From: an uncultured Collinsella sp.
Lineage (GTDB): Bacteria > Actinomycetota > Coriobacteriia > Coriobacteriales > Coriobacteriaceae
Assembly: GCA_947507155.1 (NCBI GenBank)
Contig: CANNOC010000017.1
Span: forward strand, 1 to 64,000
DNA: 64,000 nt
Reading direction: 5' to 3'
Below the pieces are notes generated by a model. It did not search any database. It saw only the letters and a list, made by a program, of their open reading frames with translations, and was not told the DNA's origin. The position numbers and the translations under genes were made by a program. Positions 169-26,934 of the stretch are shown piece by piece; position 1 is the first letter of the stretch; every line of letters starts with the position of its first letter.

Positions 169-251
169 ATAGCAAATGAGAGTGGATAATCTCCCGGTTT
201 GAGTCTGCATTCGAGCTCAAAGTGGGAGATTATCCACTCTCATTTGCTATG
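168..251. repeat. Large perfect inverted repeat (28-bp arms)
   Basis: CATAGCAAATGAGAGTGGATAATCTCCC (168-195) and its exact reverse complement (224-251); the loop itself contains TTTGAG/CTCAAA. Confidence 0.9.
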
Positions 252-283
252 CGTTCGAAAATCCACGCTCGTTTGTTTTCTGC

Positions 284-871
284 CTACATTTGGAGGAAGA
301 GCTCGTGGAGGCGGGTGTCGTCGTCGAGCTCGGGGTGGAAGGTGACACCAAGCTGATTGTCTTGACGGGCGGCGACGATACGGCCATCGACTTCGGCTAG
401 GGCCTTGGTATTGCCGTGCACCTCGACGATGCGGGGCGCACGGATAAATGTTAATGGCACTTCACCGTCGATGCCGTCTACCTGCCCCTTGGTGTGAAAG
501 CTGCCGAGCTGTCTGCCATAGGCATTACGCTCAACGAGTACATCCATGGTTGCCAGGCGCGGCGCCCCTTTATCGTCATGGGCGGCAAGGTCGTGAGCCA
601 GTAGAATCAGGCCGGCGCAGGTGCCAAGGACAGGCATGCCTTCAACAATGCGGGTGCGAAGCCCCTCGAGCATACCGAGTTCGGCAAGTAGCTTGCCCTG
701 AACGGTGGACTCGCCGCCGGGGAGGACCAGGCGGTCAAAGTTCTGCTGCAAATCGGCCGCCTGCCTCAGCTCAATACAGTGTACGCCCAGCTCGGATAGT
801 CTTGCCTCGTGCTCGGCAAAAGCGCCTTGGACCGCCAGCACGGCGACCGTCTGGTCTACATAATCGCTCAT
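284..871 (-). CDS. pdxT: Pyridoxal 5'-phosphate synthase glutaminase subunit PdxT
   Basis: VAVLAVQGAFAEHEARLSELG, LPGGESTVQGKL, GTCAGLILLA and FHPEL motifs; adjacent to pdxS. Confidence 0.95.
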   Translation of the reverse strand: MSDYVDQTVAVLAVQGAFAEHEARLSELGVHCIELRQAADLQQNFDRLVLPGGESTVQGKLLAELGMLEGLRTRIVEGMPVLGTCAGLILLAHDLAAHDDKGAPRLATMDVLVERNAYGRQLGSFHTKGQVDGIDGEVPLTFIRAPRIVEVHGNTKALAEVDGRIVAARQDNQLGVTFHPELDDDTRLHELFLQM

Positions 872-17506: not shown

Positions 17507-19414
17507 ATGGAACAGATTATCTTGAACATACTCGAGGCTCTGCGTCGCGGCGAGACCGTGGATGACAAAGCGCTCGTCAAACTGATACATGCCGAGGCGC
17601 GCCGTGAGGGTGCCGACAAACGCGATTTGGCCAAGCGCCGTCTGCTGCCGTTCTACCAGCGGGTGAAGCGCGAGGAGCCGGCTCGTTGGACGGTATGGAA
17701 TGTCGACGCCGAGCTAGAGCGTCAACTGCTGCAGGTGCTACGCATGAAGCCTCGTCGCACGGCTTCGGGCGTAGCGACCATTACCGTCATCACCAAGCCG
17801 TGGCCGTGCTCGGGCGATTGCCTGTTTTGCCCCAACGACCTGCGCATGCCCAAAAGCTATCTGCACGCCGAGCCGGCGTGCGCCCGTGCAGAGCAAAACT
17901 GCTTCGATCCATATCTGCAGGTGAGCGCCCGTTTGACGGCGCTTTCGCAGATGGGGCATGCGACCGATAAGATAGAGCTCATCGTGCTCGGTGGCACCTG
18001 GAGCGACTATCCGGAAGGGTATCAGACGTGGTTTATGTCGGAGCTTTTCCGTGCGCTCAATGACGATGCCGTCGCCGGCGTGGCGGCAAACCCCATGTTG
18101 GCGCGTCCGGGCATCAGTCGTGCCGAGGCGGGGCGCCTGCTCGATGACGCTCCCGCCGATGCACTGCCGCCGGTGGTAGCGGAGCGTCGCGAGCGCTATC
18201 GGGCAGCCGGCATTGCGACAGACGAGGTCGAGCTTGCTGCCGGCGTTGCCGACGACCAGGGGCGCGTGGATGCTGCCGTGGGCGGCTACAACCGTGCGGT
18301 GCGTCGTCTGTACGGCCCCGGTACGCCGTGGGGCGAAGTCGCCGAGTGGCAGACGGCAACGATGGAGGAGCTTGAACGTCAACAGCGCATCAACGAGACG
18401 GCGAAGCATCGCGTGGTGGGACTCGTTATCGAGACGCGCCCCGATGCCGTAACGCCGAAGGCCCTCACGCTTATCCGCCGCCTGGGCTGCACCAAGATCC
18501 AGATGGGCATCCAGAGCCTCGACCAGCACCTGCTCGATATCAACGAGCGGCGCATTTCGGTGGCGCAGATCGAGCGGGCGTTTTCGCTTGTGCGCCTGTT
18601 TGGCTTTAAGATTCACGCGCATTTTATGCTCAACTTGCTGGGCGCCACACCCGAGGGGGACAAGCGCGACTACGAGCGCTTTATGACCGTGGGGGCCTTT
18701 ATGCCCGACGAGGTCAAGGTCTACCCGTGTGCGCTCATTGAGGGTTCGCGTCTGGTGGGCTGCTATGAGCGCGGCGAGTGGCGTCCCTATACCGAGGAAG
18801 AGCTGCTCGATGTGCTGGCCGACGATATCGTGGTGACGCCGGCGTTCTGCCGCATCAGCCGCATGATCCGCGACTTTAGCTCCGACGACATCATGGTGGG
18901 CAACAAGAAACCCAACCTGCGTCAGCTCGTTGAGAACCGCCTGGCTGCTCGGTGGGATGGTGCGACGGTGCGCGAGATTCGCTATCGCGAGATCAGCACG
19001 GCTGGTGCCGACTTGGATGAGCTATCTCTTGACGAGGAGGTGGCGTACGAGACGCCGGTGACGCACGAGCGCTTTTTGCAGTGGGTGACATCGCAGGGCA
19101 AGATCGCGGGCTTTTTGCGCCTGTCGCTGCCTGACCATTCGTTTGTTGCCGCGCATGCGGACGAGTTGCCGACGACGCCGGACGAGGCGATGATTCGCGA
19201 GGTACACGTGTATGGCATGGCGGCACGCGTGGGCGACCAAGGCCAGGCGGCGCAGCATCACGGGTTGGGGCGTTTGCTCGTTGAGCGTGCGTGCGAGATT
19301 GCCCGGGATGCGGGTTATGCGCGTATCAACGTGATCAGCGCGATTGGCACGCGCGAGTACTATCGCCATTTGGGTTTTTACGACCATGGACTCTATCTGC
19401 AAAAGGAGCTCTAA
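17507..19414 (+). CDS. elp3: Elp3-type radical SAM/GNAT tRNA U34 modification enzyme
   Basis: CSGDCLFCPNDLRMPKSYLHAEPACARAEQNCFDPYLQ; IETRPDAVTPKALTLIRRLGCTKIQMGIQSLDQ; C-terminal GNAT (HHGLGRLLVERACEIARDAG). Confidence 0.92.
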   Translation: MEQIILNILEALRRGETVDDKALVKLIHAEARREGADKRDLAKRRLLPFYQRVKREEPARWTVWNVDAELERQLLQVLRMKPRRTASGVATITVITKPWPCSGDCLFCPNDLRMPKSYLHAEPACARAEQNCFDPYLQVSARLTALSQMGHATDKIELIVLGGTWSDYPEGYQTWFMSELFRALNDDAVAGVAANPMLARPGISRAEAGRLLDDAPADALPPVVAERRERYRAAGIATDEVELAAGVADDQGRVDAAVGGYNRAVRRLYGPGTPWGEVAEWQTATMEELERQQRINETAKHRVVGLVIETRPDAVTPKALTLIRRLGCTKIQMGIQSLDQHLLDINERRISVAQIERAFSLVRLFGFKIHAHFMLNLLGATPEGDKRDYERFMTVGAFMPDEVKVYPCALIEGSRLVGCYERGEWRPYTEEELLDVLADDIVVTPAFCRISRMIRDFSSDDIMVGNKKPNLRQLVENRLAARWDGATVREIRYREISTAGADLDELSLDEEVAYETPVTHERFLQWVTSQGKIAGFLRLSLPDHSFVAAHADELPTTPDEAMIREVHVYGMAARVGDQGQAAQHHGLGRLLVERACEIARDAGYARINVISAIGTREYYRHLGFYDHGLYLQKEL

Positions 19415-20290
19415 ATGAACAAGCCGAGTGTTTCTGCTGGCGTCGTTGCCGGCGTTGCTCTGGGAGCCGCGGCGCTTGGCGCGGCCGCCGTCGCTGTTCG
19501 TGCTGCCTGTCTGCAGGTTGCGCGAACTCGCAATGGGTTGGCGCGTGTGAAACGCATGCGCGATGAGAGCGGTGACGAGGTCCGTGTGCTCGTGCAGGGC
19601 GGCGTCTACCAAAGCGCGAGCTATGTTGGCGATCGTTGGGCGGAGCCGGTCTTTGCGTACTATCGTGCATTTGACGATGTGTTTGAGGCCGAGGATGCGA
19701 TGCGCGACGCCTATGGTCACGGTATCAACCGTATGCTTATGCTAGGTGGCGGCGGGTTTGCCTATCCCAAGTTTGCGCTGATGTCGCACGAGAACTTGCG
19801 CATGGACGTCATTGAGTACGATGCCGAGATTACGCGCCTGGCGCGCCGCTGGTTCTACCTAGACGAGCTGGAGCGCGCGGCGGGCGACCGCTTGCGGGTG
19901 ATTACCGCTGAGGCTCGCTCGTATCTGGGCGTGACGAGCGTGGGCCATCGTCGCTACGACGTGGTCGTGAGCGATTGCTTTGGCGGCGCCGAACCTGTAC
20001 GCGAGCTGGCGACGGTTGGGGCGTTGCGTTTAGTGCGAGGCAGCCTAAATGCCGGTGGCGTCTACGTTGCCAATATCGTGAGCGCAAACGAGGGGAGCGA
20101 TGTGACGTTCCTGCGCGACTGCGCCGCCACGGCACTCGAGGTGTTCGCCCACGCCTGGGTGGTCCCATGTGGCGATACGGAGTTCGGCGGCGAGGAAAAC
20201 TACCTGCTCATCGCCAGCGACGGCGACTATGCCTTTGCCGAAGCCGTGCCCTTCGACGCCGACTTCCTCGGCACTGCTCTCCACGACTAG
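19415..20290 (+). CDS. Spermidine synthase-like (Rossmann methyltransferase fold) protein
   Basis: RMLMLGGGGFAYPKF, MDVIEYDAEITRLARRWF, YDVVVSDCFGG. Confidence 0.72.
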   Translation: MNKPSVSAGVVAGVALGAAALGAAAVAVRAACLQVARTRNGLARVKRMRDESGDEVRVLVQGGVYQSASYVGDRWAEPVFAYYRAFDDVFEAEDAMRDAYGHGINRMLMLGGGGFAYPKFALMSHENLRMDVIEYDAEITRLARRWFYLDELERAAGDRLRVITAEARSYLGVTSVGHRRYDVVVSDCFGGAEPVRELATVGALRLVRGSLNAGGVYVANIVSANEGSDVTFLRDCAATALEVFAHAWVVPCGDTEFGGEENYLLIASDGDYAFAEAVPFDADFLGTALHD

Positions 20291-20392: not shown

Positions 20393-22837
20393 TTAGGCGT
20401 GGTCGCCCCAGCCGAGAACGCGCTGCTTCATGCCCTCGATGTCGAGCACGCCTTCGGCAAAGCCCTTGCGCACGAGCTCTTCGGGAACAAACTCGTCGTA
20501 GCGGTCAAAATAAGGCACCTCGCCGGGATAGACGAGCTCGATGGGATCGAAGTCCTTCTCGGCCTCGGCGGCGAGCACCTCAAAGAACGTCTCCTCGTCG
20601 GCCTTCATCTTAAACTGCATAAAGTACGGGCGTGATGGGTCGAGTCCGCGAAGGCCCAGCTCCGCGGCACATTTAATCTTGAGCATGCGCTCGAGCGCCA
20701 AAAAGGCGTAGCTGCCCAGCCAGGGGAAGAGCACCCAGGTGTCGCCGCCCAGGTTGATGAGCGGCTTGGTTCCCGCACCCGAAATCTCGGCGGTATGACG
20801 AGCCTGTGCAAGGCGTGCCCGTGCGTTACCCATAAGGTACAGATATACTGCGCGCTCGTTGAGCGCCTTGCGCATGCGCTCGAGTACGTGTGTATTGATG
20901 TCGCCGGGGCAGTCGCCAAAGTAGGCCGGCACCCGGCCCTTGACCTGCGTGGCAAAGACGGTGTGGCGCTTCCAGTCCACTTCCTCGACAATCCAGCAGT
21001 GTCCGGCGATGGCGATGCGCTCACCGGGCGGTGGCGGATTGACGATTGTGCCCAACTCGGCCGACTCGCTGCGGACGGTGAACTCCTCGTTTTCCTGGAA
21101 CACGGCGTAGAACTTAAAGTTGTTAATGATGCGTTCGCCCGCGAGGCCCACAATGAGCCCACCGCCCTCGGTGACCTGGATATGGTCGATCTTGATGAGG
21201 TGACGCAGCAACACGCGATAGTCATCGGCCGAGACTCGATGGAAATAACTGAGCGTGAGTACGCGCTGGGCAAGCTCTGCCGGCGTGAGTTCGCCGGTGC
21301 TGGCAAGCGTCGACATGGTCTGGTGATAGAGCAGACTGTAGGGGAGTCGATCGAGCTCAGGCGGCTCGACCCACTTTTCCTCGCGATAGAGCTGTACGAG
21401 CGCGATGCCCTGCAGGAGCTTCCACGGAATGGTCTCGGGCATCATCGTGCGCGGCTCGGGCTCTTCCTCGCGCATGACGAACCACATCTCGGGTGGAAGA
21501 TCGCGGCGTCCCGTGCGGCCCATTCGCTGCAAAAAGGAGCTGACGGTAAATGGCGCATCGATCTGAAACGCACGCTCCAGACGGCCGATATCGATACCGA
21601 GTTCCAGCGTAGAGGTGGTGACGGTTGTCTGTGCCTGCTCCTCATCGCGCATAAGCTCTTCTGCCGTCTCGCGCAACGATGCCGAAAGATTGCCGTGGTG
21701 GATGAGAAAGCGGTCGGGCTCGTGCCGGCTCTCGCAGTAGCTACGCAGCATGGAGCATACGGCCTCTGCCTCCTCGCGCGAGTTGGCAAAGACCAAGCAC
21801 TTTCGGCCGCGCGTGTGCTCAAAGATATATCCCATACCGGGGTCGGCGTTGTCTGGTGCTGTATCGGTGGGGTTGAGTAATGCCTGTTCGGGTGCTTGGG
21901 GGATGTCGACTTCGCCCTCGGGGGCCGAGGAAGCTTGGCGGTCCTTGGGAGCGGCCTTGCCCTGTGCCCGCTCACGACGTTGACGGCGCTCCTCTTGTGT
22001 GAGCTGTCCGCTGTGACGCATGTCTTGGGCGCCGGCGGGCAGTGCCGCGGATGCCGCCGCATCGATGCGCTCGCACGCAAGCACTTCGGCCTCTTGAGGA
22101 CCTGTACCCATGAATCCCCGCTGCTGCGCCTGGGGGCCCGAGTTGTAGAAGTGCTCCATGGAGATGCGCCACACGCGACGCGGTTCCTCAAAACGGGGGA
22201 TAATGCAGTCGCGCCCCGTTCCCTGTGAGAGAAAAGCGCCCGTGCGCTCGGGGTCGCCGATGGTAGCCGAAAGGCCAATGCGGCGAGGCTGCACGCCGGC
22301 CATGCGCGAGAGTCGCTCGATAAGGCAGAGCGTTTGCCCGCCACGGTCGCCGCGCATGAGCGAGTGGACCTCATCGATGACCACGTAGCGCAGGTCGCAA
22401 AACATGCGCGGGATCGCCATGTGCTTATGGATTAAAAGCGCTTCGAGTGACTCGGGTGTAATCTGCAGGATACCGCTCGGTTTTTTAATGAGCTTAGCCT
22501 TGTGCGACTGCGAGACATCGCCATGCCAGTGCCAGACAGGGATATCGGCCTCTTCGCAGAGGTCGTTGAGGCGGACGAACTGATCATTGATGAGCGCTTT
22601 GAGGGGGCCGATGTAGAGGGCGCCCACGCTCGCGGGCGGGTTCTCCCAAAACTCGGTCAGGATGGGAAAGAAGGCTGCCTCGGTTTTGCCGGAAGCTGTG
22701 GATGCCGTTAGGAGCACATTGTCTTGTGTGTTAAAGATGGCATCTGCCGCCGCAACCTGGATAGAGCGCAGACTCTCCCAATCGTGGGAGTAGATGAAGT
22801 CTTGGATAAACGGAGCATATCGGTCAAAGGCGTTCAC
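20393..22837 (-). CDS. Lhr/BrxHI-like SF2 DEAD/DEAH helicase
   Basis: TASTASGKTEAAFFPIL (motif I), VVIDEVHSLMRGDRG (DEVH), GLSATIGD, TSTLELGIDIGRLE, QRMGRTGRRDLP; GTG start after GAGGGGAGG. Confidence 0.88.
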   Translation of the reverse strand: MNAFDRYAPFIQDFIYSHDWESLRSIQVAAADAIFNTQDNVLLTASTASGKTEAAFFPILTEFWENPPASVGALYIGPLKALINDQFVRLNDLCEEADIPVWHWHGDVSQSHKAKLIKKPSGILQITPESLEALLIHKHMAIPRMFCDLRYVVIDEVHSLMRGDRGGQTLCLIERLSRMAGVQPRRIGLSATIGDPERTGAFLSQGTGRDCIIPRFEEPRRVWRISMEHFYNSGPQAQQRGFMGTGPQEAEVLACERIDAAASAALPAGAQDMRHSGQLTQEERRQRRERAQGKAAPKDRQASSAPEGEVDIPQAPEQALLNPTDTAPDNADPGMGYIFEHTRGRKCLVFANSREEAEAVCSMLRSYCESRHEPDRFLIHHGNLSASLRETAEELMRDEEQAQTTVTTSTLELGIDIGRLERAFQIDAPFTVSSFLQRMGRTGRRDLPPEMWFVMREEEPEPRTMMPETIPWKLLQGIALVQLYREEKWVEPPELDRLPYSLLYHQTMSTLASTGELTPAELAQRVLTLSYFHRVSADDYRVLLRHLIKIDHIQVTEGGGLIVGLAGERIINNFKFYAVFQENEEFTVRSESAELGTIVNPPPPGERIAIAGHCWIVEEVDWKRHTVFATQVKGRVPAYFGDCPGDINTHVLERMRKALNERAVYLYLMGNARARLAQARHTAEISGAGTKPLINLGGDTWVLFPWLGSYAFLALERMLKIKCAAELGLRGLDPSRPYFMQFKMKADEETFFEVLAAEAEKDFDPIELVYPGEVPYFDRYDEFVPEELVRKGFAEGVLDIEGMKQRVLGWGDHA

Positions 22838-22921
22838 GGGGCCTCCCCTCAAATACGAACCTCTCAATGCGGTTGGCAATGGTTTGCTGCATTGCTGTCT
22901 CAACGTTTGTGCAGATAAAAG

Positions 22922-22952
22922 CTGCCAAAATAGACCTGTCCCTTTTTGGCAG
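22922..22952. repeat. REP-like palindrome CTGCCAAAA-(TAGACCTGTCCCT)-TTTTGGCAG
   Basis: Perfect 9-bp IR; GGGACAGG in loop on minus strand; inside the putative operon, just after the ATPase stop. Confidence 0.75.
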
Positions 22953-22953
22953 G

Positions 22954-24258
22954 TTAGATGGTGAATTCGGCGAAGTTGCGGTCGCCGTCTGCGGTGCCGG
23001 TGTCGCCTGTTGCGGCTGCCGGTGCCAGCGCGTCGCCGCCGACGCTTTGCAGCAACTCGGCCACGTTTGCATCGGGGTTCTGGCACAGGATATCGAGCAG
23101 CTCGATAAAGTCACGGATGACCTCACGCGGCGTCAGGTGCGTATCGGCTCCCACGCGGCCAAACTCAATCTTGAGAAAGTCTACCAAGTCGTTCTCGGTA
23201 AGCGTGGGCGTCCAGCCAAAGTATCCGGCATGGATCTGCATGAGTTTTTCGATCAGCACCAGCAACTCCTCGTAGGTGAGTGGCTGCAGGCGGATGATGG
23301 GCGCGAGCATGTCCTTAAGGTCCTCGCGTGCAAAGCGGCCCTGAGCGAGTCGACTTCGCAGGGCCTCGTAGGAGAACACGCCACGGCGGCGGTCTTCGAT
23401 GGAGGTTGGCGTGCCGCCCATGATCATGCCCAGGTACTGCGCCTTGCCCTGGAGCGTGTCGTTGTACATGGTCAGGATCTTCTCGTAGTTGTATTGGCGC
23501 GTGATGGCGTTGGGAATCTTATACAGATTCACGAGCTCGTCGATGAGCACCAGCATGCCCTTGTAGCCGCTGCAGACCAAAAAGCGCGCAATGAGCTTAA
23601 CGTAGTCGTACCAGTCGTCATCGCTGATGATGGTCGAGGAGCCCAGCTCGGCGCGTGCCTCACTCTTGGTGCGGTACTCGCCGCGAATCCATTTGGTCAC
23701 GCGGCTCATAGCTTCTTCGTCGCCCTCGGATACGGCCGCGCGGTAGCGGCGGAGCATGCGGGCGAAGTCGAAGCCGTGGACCATTTCCTCGAGTGGGGCC
23801 AGTTGGGCATTGACGGCAGACTCGTCGGCATCGGCACACGAGGCGACCCAGCGATCCAGGATAAGGTTGAGCGCACCGCCCTCGGGGCGCGTTTTAGTCG
23901 ATATGTTGCGGATGAGCTCACGGTAGGTGGCAAGGCCCTGTCCCTGGCCGCCCTGCAGGCGGCGCTCAGGGGATAGGTCGGCATCGGCGACGACGAATCC
24001 CTCGCCCATGGCGTGCGTGCGGATGGTCTGGAGCAAAAAGCTCTTGCCGGCGCCGTAACGACCGACCAGAAAGCGGAAGCTCGCGCCGCCGTCGGCGATG
24101 AGACTCAGATCGGTGAGCAGGGCGCGGATTTCGACCTCGCGCCCTACGGTGATGTAAGGAAGGCCGATGCGCGGGACAACGCCGCCCTTGAGCGAGTTGA
24201 GAATGACGGCGGCGACGCGCTTGGGCACACGGGGTGCTGCGGATGTGGTATCACTCAT
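22954..24258 (-). CDS. BrxC/BrxD-like (DUF2791) P-loop ATP-binding protein
   Basis: FRFLVGRYGAGKSFLLQTIR (Walker A), GMLVLIDELVNLYKI (Walker B), YNYEKILTMYNDTLQGKAQYLGMIMGGTP; BREX-type ATPase architecture. Confidence 0.82.
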   Translation of the reverse strand: MSDTTSAAPRVPKRVAAVILNSLKGGVVPRIGLPYITVGREVEIRALLTDLSLIADGGASFRFLVGRYGAGKSFLLQTIRTHAMGEGFVVADADLSPERRLQGGQGQGLATYRELIRNISTKTRPEGGALNLILDRWVASCADADESAVNAQLAPLEEMVHGFDFARMLRRYRAAVSEGDEEAMSRVTKWIRGEYRTKSEARAELGSSTIISDDDWYDYVKLIARFLVCSGYKGMLVLIDELVNLYKIPNAITRQYNYEKILTMYNDTLQGKAQYLGMIMGGTPTSIEDRRRGVFSYEALRSRLAQGRFAREDLKDMLAPIIRLQPLTYEELLVLIEKLMQIHAGYFGWTPTLTENDLVDFLKIEFGRVGADTHLTPREVIRDFIELLDILCQNPDANVAELLQSVGGDALAPAAATGDTGTADGDRNFAEFTI

Positions 24259-26011
24259 GGTCTAGGTATCCTCTCACGTCTGCTTCGTAGTCCTCGATAA
24301 TCTGCGGTCCTGCCGCTCCAAACTCGATAACGGTGTCACCCACCAGGTCAAAGAGCGCCTCGTTGATGGTATCGACGAGCATGTCCTCGCTTTTGCCCGA
24401 CTGTGCCACCGCCAATGCCGTCTGGGCCGTGTTCTGCTCGAGCAACGCGCGGAGATAGGCGTCTGCGGCAGGCGCGAGTTCGTTCGTGGCGTCAGCGGGC
24501 GCAGCAGCTGCGAACACGGGCGTCGGTGCGAGGAGCGGTGCCACGACGCCAAACTCTTCGGTGGAGACAGTCGGCTCGTCGGGTTCGTCTTGCCGTGTGG
24601 CCATCTCGCCAGGTCCGGCGGACATGCTGGGCGTAGACTCGGTGTTCGGTTGCTCGATAAGCGTCGCCTCGGCTTCCATAGGCACATCATCCTCGCGCTC
24701 CTCATCAATCAAAAGCGCTTCACGCGTTTGCGCGGCGGCGCTCCGAATGTGCCCCAGCTGACTCAAATCGATATCGATCTTGACAGGCTGGTGCGCGGCG
24801 TCCCACGAAAGCCATGCCACGATCTCGTCATCGATGATCTTGGCCAGATATTTGGGGACCTTCTCCTCCTTTAGGGGATGGGTGGGGTCTAGGGCCAGGC
24901 GCAGGCGTTGGTCGCAGGCGCGCATCATCTCACCGAGCTTGCTACTTTTTTGTCTGCTGCCGTGGATGCGCATGCATTCCCAAAAGCCATTTTGGCAGCG
25001 ATAGATGTGAATGGGGTCCAGGCGATATTCGCAGTCCTCGTGGCGCTCGGGCGCAAAGAACACGGCCGAGGCAAACATGGTGTAGGGCATGGCCGTCTCC
25101 TCCCCAAACAAGCTCGCTACGATGCCGGTCTTTCGGTGCGTGTCATAGTAGCGCGCCATACGGACATACACGGCGCATGCCACGTGGCGCAGGTCGCGAT
25201 GGTGGGAACGGTCGAGCCGTGAGTTATTCAGGTTGTACGTGGAGAGGGCGTTTATAGCGGTCATGAGTCGCTCCTCGCCTGCCTCGTCGGGCGGAAGGGG
25301 GAGCGTGGGCTCGGAGGTCTTGCGACGCGCAGGCGCCAGGTCTGACGGCGTTGGCGCGGGCGCAAGGTCTCGCGCCGCACGCCGCAGCTCGATAAGGGCG
25401 TTATCGAACATGACGGTTTTAGAGTCGCGAAGCAGCTTGGGGTCGAGTCCGTGGAACACGGCGTAGTCCTGCAGCCACACGCGTGCGAACCGGTCGATGC
25501 CGGGCTCGAAGGCGCGATAGGCATCCCAAAAGGCCTTGATTTTGTTAAAACCATCGAGTGGGTCATCTACGCCAATGCCGCAGATCAGCTCATAGAGATA
25601 CAGAAAGGCAAAGGACGTAGACGTTTCCTCGACGGTTCCGCGGCGCACTTGGGTGCGCCAGGTAAAATAGCCGCGCAGCTGCCGATCGCTCATGGCGTTA
25701 TAGGTGGGAAAGTACGACTTGAATGTGCCGTTGTAGGGACAGTCGTCCTCAAAGTCGGCCATCAGCAGGCCTTGGCGGTAGAAAAGCTCGGCTTCCGAAA
25801 GCCAACGTCCCGCGCCACCCTTGGGGTCTTCTTGCCAACGCGATATCTCACGCATTTTGCGGTACTGGTCAGGAAGGAAGTTCTGCATCTGACGACCGGT
25901 TTTGAGAATCGGCTCGTCAGCATAGACTTCGTTTGAGAAGCGAGCAGACTGATGGGTCCGGGCCTCGGCCATAATGCGCTCGATGAGCATCTTGATGTCC
26001 TGGTCGGCCAC
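24251..26011 (-). CDS. TerB-N / TerB-C domain-containing protein
   Basis: N-term FLPDQYRKMREISRWQEDPKGGAGRWLSEAELFYRQGLLMADFEDDCPYNG and YLYELICGIG; C-term MLVDTINEALFDLVGDTVIEF...IIEDYEADVRGYL. Stop overlaps ATPase start by 8 nt. Confidence 0.78.
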   Translation of the reverse strand: MADQDIKMLIERIMAEARTHQSARFSNEVYADEPILKTGRQMQNFLPDQYRKMREISRWQEDPKGGAGRWLSEAELFYRQGLLMADFEDDCPYNGTFKSYFPTYNAMSDRQLRGYFTWRTQVRRGTVEETSTSFAFLYLYELICGIGVDDPLDGFNKIKAFWDAYRAFEPGIDRFARVWLQDYAVFHGLDPKLLRDSKTVMFDNALIELRRAARDLAPAPTPSDLAPARRKTSEPTLPLPPDEAGEERLMTAINALSTYNLNNSRLDRSHHRDLRHVACAVYVRMARYYDTHRKTGIVASLFGEETAMPYTMFASAVFFAPERHEDCEYRLDPIHIYRCQNGFWECMRIHGSRQKSSKLGEMMRACDQRLRLALDPTHPLKEEKVPKYLAKIIDDEIVAWLSWDAAHQPVKIDIDLSQLGHIRSAAAQTREALLIDEEREDDVPMEAEATLIEQPNTESTPSMSAGPGEMATRQDEPDEPTVSTEEFGVVAPLLAPTPVFAAAAPADATNELAPAADAYLRALLEQNTAQTALAVAQSGKSEDMLVDTINEALFDLVGDTVIEFGAAGPQIIEDYEADVRGYLDHE

Positions 26012-26099
26012 CGTTTCTCCTCTCCTAACGCAGCTTCGGTGACCTCATATCATAGCACAGCATCAAACAGGTGTTCGAGATACCGCTACGTAGATAGAT

Positions 26100-26816
26100 T
26101 TAGAACAGGAGGGCGTAGATGACGGCTATGACAACGGAGGGGAGCATATTGGCCGTGCGGAAGGTCTGAGGACGGATGAGGTTGACGCCGACGCAGAAGA
26201 TGAGTATAGAGCCCACGAGCGATAGACTGTCGAGGGCGGCGGCGGTCATGATGGGGGAGAGCGCGCCGGCAAACAGCGTAATCGTTCCCTGGAATACGGC
26301 AACGGGCAGGGCGGAGAAGATGCAGCCGCGGCCGAGCGAAGCCGTCATGGTGCAGACGATGATGCAGTCCAACGCGCCCTTGAGGGCAAGCGTGGACCAG
26401 TCGCCGAGCAAGCCGTCTTGGATTGATCCCACGATAGCCATGGCACCGATGCAGACGGTCAGCGATGTCGAGACAAAGGCATTGGTGAACTCGTTGTCTC
26501 CCTCGCTGCCGGTTTTGCGCTTGAGCCATTCGCCCAGGTTTTCGATGCCGGCTTCCAGGTTAACGGCCTCGCCGATGAGCGAGCCGAGGGCAAACGAGAC
26601 GATGAGCATGGTGGTGCCGGTGGTCTCCAGCGCTTTCCCGTCAATGACGAGCATCTTTTGCATGGTGCCGCCCAGTCCGATAAACAAAACGCACAGCCCC
26701 GACGCCTTCATGAGCGTGTCTTGGATGCGGGGTGTGATAAAGCGTCCGCCTATAAGGCCCAGCAGTCCGCCCGCAATCAAAAGTGCGACGTTGATGACCG
26801 TTCCCAAACCCGGCAT
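26100..26816 (-). CDS. DUF554 family membrane protein
   Basis: MPGLGTVINVALLIAGGLLGLIGGRF, GTTMLIVSFALGSLIGEAVNLE, LTVCIGAMAIVGSIQDGL; multi-TM. Confidence 0.88.
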   Translation of the reverse strand: MPGLGTVINVALLIAGGLLGLIGGRFITPRIQDTLMKASGLCVLFIGLGGTMQKMLVIDGKALETTGTTMLIVSFALGSLIGEAVNLEAGIENLGEWLKRKTGSEGDNEFTNAFVSTSLTVCIGAMAIVGSIQDGLLGDWSTLALKGALDCIIVCTMTASLGRGCIFSALPVAVFQGTITLFAGALSPIMTAAALDSLSLVGSILIFCVGVNLIRPQTFRTANMLPSVVIAVIYALLF

Positions 26817-26934
26817 GAACCCTCCCATATTGATGCCAACCTGGCAATCGTAGCAGAACGGGCTGCAGGGTGCGTCATGCCTCATCCTATACGTTATATA
26901 AGTGGTATTAATGACGGCATTTGGTGCCCGATCC

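Follow-up and report, generated by a model that had tools for sequence, protein, structure and literature searches.

Shango is an anti-phage system made of a TerB-like protein, an ATPase and a helicase, which gives modest protection against several phages in Pseudomonas aeruginosa and Escherichia coli (PMC10250203). In the literature searched we found neither a mechanism for it nor a report of a LexA-type operator at a Shango locus. Its helicase, SngC, has been grouped with BrxHI, DruE and DpdJ (PMC12278908); BrxHI forms a linked dyad with BrxD, the two being thought to act as helicase and helicase loader (PMC12839542), and DruE engages replication intermediates that contain single-stranded DNA (ssDNA) (PMC13192584). 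Here we describe three minus-strand genes, sngA, sngB and sngC, at positions 20393–26011 of a 64,000-nucleotide stretch of DNA (the window) from an uncultured Collinsella sp. (contig CANNOC010000017.1). The locus is an ordinary Shango by its parts and unusual by its setting: the operon is core in a family of gut bacteria and has an SOS-type operator. What is new is this setting; Shango itself was already known.

Identity of the three-gene locus

The genes are intact and consecutive, in the order sngA-sngB-sngC, and their products have the PADLOC models of SngA, SngB and SngC as top or only matches, aligned near full length (260, 565 and 912 bits), the next best models being BrxD at 134 bits and BrxHI at 407. 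A TerB-family protein, a BrxD-like ATPase and a DEAD/DEAH helicase stand together in one locus, the hidden Markov models (HMMs) of all three Shango proteins are the best match, and by these scores the three genes are a complete Shango set, neither BREX nor a new family. Pfam matches for all three proteins exceed the curated cut-offs: TerB_N 112 bits (cut-off 25) and TerB_C 60 bits (cut-off 26) in SngA, BrxC_BrxD (PF10923) 501 bits in SngB, DEAD 93 bits and Helicase_C 65 bits in SngC. The likeness to the Shango of E. coli and P. aeruginosa PA14 extends to all three parts (TerB-like protein, BrxD-type ATPase, DEAD/DEAH helicase). The Collinsella copy differs in being chromosomal and core throughout its family, whereas theirs is accessory and found in defence hotspots (the usual setting of Shango, not a strictly defining one, and not the one found here), and in being preceded by a conserved LexA-type operator.

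A sequence-only reading of this DNA had reported the three consecutive genes, a TerB-N/TerB-C protein, an 8-nt overlap between the first two genes and intact ATPase and helicase motifs. All of this holds: the sngA/sngB overlap is exact (ATGAGTGA), Walker A (GRYGAGKS), Walker B (VLIDE) and the helicase motifs ASGKT, DEVH, SAT and QRMGRTGR are present, and the core motif positions of both enzymes are invariant columns among 43–52 relatives. Pfam likewise supports the TerB and BrxC/D domains for which that reading had proposed an HMM search. Its BrxC/BrxD-type ATPase stands as a PF10923 protein and its Lhr/BrxHI-like helicase as a superfamily 2 (SF2) helicase, although 'BrxD-like' and 'BrxHI-like' are only second-best descriptions given the Shango scores. 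It was right to see a stand-alone, non-BREX locus related to stress or defence, but did not recognise the named system, and its suggestion of a family not usually described was wrong for the system as such, which is Shango (PADLOC; PMC10250203). The start of sngC is a GTG at about 22837 and not at 23086, where the longest open reading frame (ORF) begins, because the relatives align from that residue. In the sngB–sngC gap left by this correction there is an inverted repeat, CTGCCAAAA...TTTTGGCAG, followed by a T-rich run, that nine relatives from the C. aerofaciens group have largely retained and that may be an attenuator.

How close is the locus to BREX? The BrxD–BrxHI dyad of BREX type 2 has a homologous ATPase and a helicase with the Lhr C-terminal domain, likely as loader and translocase. 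In contrast to BREX type 2, no PglW, PglX, PglZ or PglY lies beside sngABC, and the scores are far under the BREX cut-offs, with SngB reaching 135 bits against the NCBIfam BrxD model, where 350 are needed. A PF10923 search of the window's genome gave one strong match and no homologue of BrxC/PglY size. No other BREX gene (PglX, PglZ, BrxC/PglY) was found among the scanned window proteins, as the earlier reading had noted for PglZ and PglX, which were not searched genome-wide. We rejected a BREX assignment because of these scores and the missing partner genes. SngC similarly misses the model of the ligase-associated Lhr helicases (TIGR04121; 193 bits, cut-off 850): its nearest solved fold is an Lhr, but it is linked to SngA and SngB and not to a ligase. 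Ter proteins are absent among the direct neighbours examined, TerC and TerD not having been searched genome-wide.

Core status and inheritance in Coriobacteriaceae

SngA, SngB and SngC were each found in 64 of 64 good genomes of Coriobacteriaceae (coded f1 here), the family of the window's genus Collinsella, while the control defence gene cas1 was found in 22 of the 64. sngABC is shown computationally to be a core chromosomal operon of this family, and it mostly occupies one chromosomal place. An Elp3 – SpeE-like – sngCBA neighbourhood is common to the f1 genera g1, g3, g4, g5 and g6 and partly present in some Atopobiaceae and Slackia; a DUF554 gene lies upstream of sngA in g1 (the C. aerofaciens group and one other), g5 and g6. 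No convincing defence system appears among 20 flanking window proteins, two of which gave weak helicase/ATPase-type cross-matches. In Atopobiaceae (f5), 82 of 104 genomes have SngB and 83 have SngC, the two sets differing by a single genome, and genera have Shango almost wholly present or wholly absent. Only 11 of 97 Eggerthellaceae (f2) genomes carry it, and outside the order a phylum-wide sample gave a strong SngB in one genome only. The earlier reading had proposed conservation of the gene order elsewhere as a check: the A-B-C order recurs in Coriobacteriaceae and Atopobiaceae, in some Eggerthellaceae, and in Ruminococcus and other Clostridia, whose SngB shares 61–67% identity with that of the window.

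Within Coriobacteriaceae the distances of SngB and SngC follow those of RpoB (Mantel r 0.85 and 0.73, with 0 of 2000 permutations as high), the trees have subclades in common, and a single origin in the family is not rejected (approximately unbiased (AU) test, p 0.069). From the RpoB tracking and the AU outcomes, set out for Atopobiaceae below, Shango was transferred between families in the past and inherited vertically within Coriobacteriaceae, where computation shows vertical retention since at least the main radiation. All three genes are under purifying selection. It is strong in SngB and SngC, with ratios of nonsynonymous to synonymous substitution (dN/dS) of 0.038 and 0.034 (26th and 39th percentiles of a 186-gene sample) against 0.074–0.084 for three flank genes. 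SngA is the fastest-evolving part (0.121, 75th percentile).

Viral carriage was considered and rejected, as no SngA relative was found in IMG/VR and no SngB relative in phage records. SngB relatives occur in 696 plasmid records, but only three plasmid records hold a SngC relative at E ≤ 1e-60, so that the majority probably represent distant Shangos or other ATPases like BrxD. Several loci depart from the common form. A second Shango lineage (L104, L112, L116 and L117, from the Eggerthellaceae genus g64 and family f6) has SngC 35–44% identical where nearly complete, and in three of these four loci a LexA-like box precedes sngA. In a distant actinomycetote (L180, G477) a SngB-like gene is followed by a SngC-like helicase of 1102 aa and preceded by a 798-aa ORF, and the HMM search found no SngA; this is perhaps a related system with a different first component. 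In one Atopobiaceae locus (L086, G173) sngB and sngC have no nearby sngA, and a NadA-like gene on the other strand is in its place.

The LexA-type operator before sngA

The sequence before sngA contains a LexA/SOS-box-like operator, CGAACACCTGTTTG, with a putative -10 element just downstream (Table 1). The box was scored with a matrix trained exclusively on boxes from 30 lexA promoters. This matrix finds a site in the 200 nt before sngA in 20 of 24 Coriobacteriaceae (shuffle rate 0.0007) and none in 51 upstream regions of flank genes; in the four misses the box lies farther upstream or just under the cut-off. It is present before sngA in all 20 diverged Coriobacteriaceae examined, with 44% identity in the sequence flanking the box, and the relatives have a -10-like hexamer at about the same spacing. 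The alignment was anchored on the motif, which inflates identity inside the box, so the box count and not box identity serves as evidence. A box at one mismatch or less is found in 29 of 55 sngA upstream regions, where dinucleotide shuffles predict 0.3. The lexA promoters themselves carry one to three such boxes in 28 of 30 genomes, often in the identical GTTTG form, and one of them (in G053) contains a 14-mer identical to the sngA box form. In the window's genome the same motif precedes recA, uvrA, a Y-family polymerase gene and lexA (three sites at the scan cut-off), so that sngA has an operator motif in common with the LexA regulon genes, and an operator of the lexA-promoter type lies at its promoter. 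Because related genomes share history, binomial p-values suggest more independent events than there were; the controls on flank genes, and the comparison of linked and unlinked sngC below, are independent of them. We accepted the operator because the lexA-trained matrix found the box across other genomes, and the case rests on this conservation. From it we infer that sngABC is under LexA/SOS control in Coriobacteriaceae. As an SOS gene set, sngABC is known in no organism in the literature searched.

The broken operons provide a natural comparison. In some Coriobacteriaceae loci sngC is parted from sngB by 1–10 kb of other genes or lies on a different contig, and these loci retain all three Shango genes. 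Of 19 unlinked sngC genes, 11 are preceded by a box at the strict cut-off (shuffles about 0) and 15 at two mismatches (shuffle 0.077), versus 2 of 40 linked sngC genes at the strict cut-off. Computation shows that when the operon breaks sngC usually acquires a LexA-type box of its own, by which co-regulation would be kept, and this re-appearance before the split-off gene is strong evidence that the predicted regulation is functional. Splits of 1–10 kb, between sngB and sngC or between sngA and sngB, were seen in several Collinsella-type and Olsenella-type genomes (L068–L075, L087, L088 and L102), where the intervening genes encode an FeFe hydrogenase, ABC transporters, a PIN protein, a lipoprotein and a DUF4143-type ATPase. 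The idea that the sngB–sngC inserts are defence cargo was rejected, as the readable ones include hydrogenase, ABC transporter, PIN and lipoprotein-like genes.

The window's genome (G000) has further strong LexA-type sites at C29:10334, C1:122735, C8:19408 and 19425, C21:21305 and C7:45042, which adjoin ORFs of unknown function or have no called gene start nearby and are predicted to belong to the Collinsella SOS regulon.

Table 1. Features of the sngABC locus and its flanks (window coordinates; residue numbers for SngA domains).
Feature	Position	Strand	Remarks
LexA/SOS-box-like operator	26064..26077	-	52 nt before sngA start; lexA-trained matrix score 18.3
Putative -10 element TATGAT	26049..26054	-	9 nt downstream of operator; inferred
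sngA	24251..26011	-	TerB_N + TerB_C protein; Pfam, PADLOC SngA 260 bits, AlphaFold2 model
SngA TerB_N	aa 64-199
SngA alpha+beta middle	aa ~243-441		predicted
SngA disordered linker	aa 442-509
SngA TerB_C	aa 407-580		best stretch; folded tail 514-584
sngB	22954..24258	-	AAA+ ATPase, BrxC/BrxD family PF10923; Walker A + B intact
sngB-sngC gap	22838..22953	-	116 nt, left by corrected sngC start
sngC	20393..22837	-	Lhr-type SF2 helicase/translocase; GTG start 22837; helicase motifs all intact
Elp3-type radical SAM/GNAT gene	17507-19414	+	conserved flank, convergent with sngC
Spermidine-synthase-like gene	19415-20290	+	conserved flank, convergent with sngC
DUF554 gene	26100..26885	-	conserved flank, upstream of sngA

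Proposed working and rival explanations

In mycobacteria, Lhr has a link to the response to DNA damage. The model of SngC (mean predicted local distance difference test score (pLDDT) 77) has Mycobacterium smegmatis Lhr (5v9x) as its best fold match (E 2e-21), and its fold agrees with the domain plan published for BrxHI: helicase, winged helix, beta-barrel and Lhr C-terminal part (PMC12839542). The AlphaFold2 model of SngA (pLDDT 84) comprises TerB_N, an alpha+beta middle, a disordered linker and a small C-terminal domain; weak fold matches to LysR winged helices (E 0.4 or worse) are a lead for TerB_C only. SngB has no solved relative by sequence.

We consider it likely that the Coriobacteriaceae Shango is a core module for DNA processing under SOS regulation, whose AAA+ ATPase loads a translocase of the Lhr type, anti-phage activity being one outcome. 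In this proposal LexA, bound to the box overlapping the sngA promoter, would hold the operon down. DNA damage, whether caused by genotoxins or by the replication of phage DNA and breakage of host DNA, would activate RecA, LexA would be cleaved and SngABC made. By analogy with the BrxD–BrxHI dyad, SngB, as a BrxD-type AAA+ ATPase, would then load SngC, the DNA translocase, onto abnormal DNA such as single-stranded gaps and stalled forks; the action on ssDNA-containing or stalled intermediates is suggested by DruE, of the same helicase group. Target choice may fall to SngA, acting as adaptor or sensor. By stripping or remodelling the DNA, the translocase would block phage DNA replication and help the host to deal with damage, and sngABC may give phage resistance in Collinsella. 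AbpAB is another defence system activated by host DNA damage, in its case independently of RecA and LexA (PMC10732053).

Several observations count against this proposal. In the window's genome taken alone the sngA box is one mismatch from a perfect palindrome, and about 16 chance matches as good are expected per 1750 upstream regions; this single-genome box, spotted by eye, is non-significant and was not accepted as evidence. A good box is absent in about half of the sampled Atopobiaceae and in several Eggerthellaceae, and a single origin in Atopobiaceae is rejected (AU p 1e-39). SngA has no significant PDB match by sequence or fold, and neither a nuclease nor any other effector domain was recognised in SngA, SngB or SngC.

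Two other explanations have to be weighed. The locus could be an ordinary anti-phage Shango, stably inherited in Coriobacteriaceae, for which SOS control serves only as a switch-on during infection. Shango does guard P. aeruginosa and E. coli against several phages (PMC10250203), SngA evolves faster, as an invader-facing part might, and old transfers are visible between families and with gut Clostridia. However, defence genes are usually patchy, as are cas1 in our sample and Shango itself, found in few P. aeruginosa strains (PMC10855318), whereas sngABC is universal in the family, lies outside any defence island and is retained despite operon splits. We hold this explanation possible but somewhat doubtful. 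Alternatively, Shango could be primarily a host machine of the SOS response for DNA repair or replication-fork rescue, its anti-phage effect elsewhere being a by-product of acting on abnormal DNA. The operator common with lexA and recA, the core status, the slow evolution of SngB and SngC and the Lhr fold of SngC all point this way. Nevertheless, the known Shango phenotype is phage resistance, and Shango cannot be indispensable for SOS repair because whole Atopobiaceae genera and most Eggerthellaceae lack it; we can entertain this explanation only tentatively. A reduced or variant BREX, in which a type 2-like BrxD–BrxHI dyad is combined with TerB, is very improbable in spite of the relationship of SngB and SngC to BrxD and BrxHI, given the wide margin of the Shango scores and the single strong PF10923 gene.

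The core presence together with the conserved SOS switch suggests that the job of the DNA-processing module that we propose is in handling damaged or foreign DNA. The earlier label of candidate stress or defence cassette becomes less simple, because genes that are core in Coriobacteriaceae and carry an SOS-type operator favour its 'stress' half as much as its 'defence' half. It is conceivable, though we would not yet lean on it, that Shango is fundamentally a DNA-damage machine under SOS control, which Coriobacteriaceae and related lineages of the gut carry as core genes and which was recruited elsewhere as a mobile anti-phage system; if so, the question of its mechanism would become how SngB loads SngC on damaged DNA. 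A lineage with a universal, slowly evolving and, by its operator, LexA-wired Shango indicates what would trigger its switch-on and which kind of DNA it probably handles, and Coriobacteriaceae are a natural setting for tests of Shango. It also makes an anti-phage system part of the core genome in a major genus of the human gut, beside the SOS response, which governs prophage induction as well.

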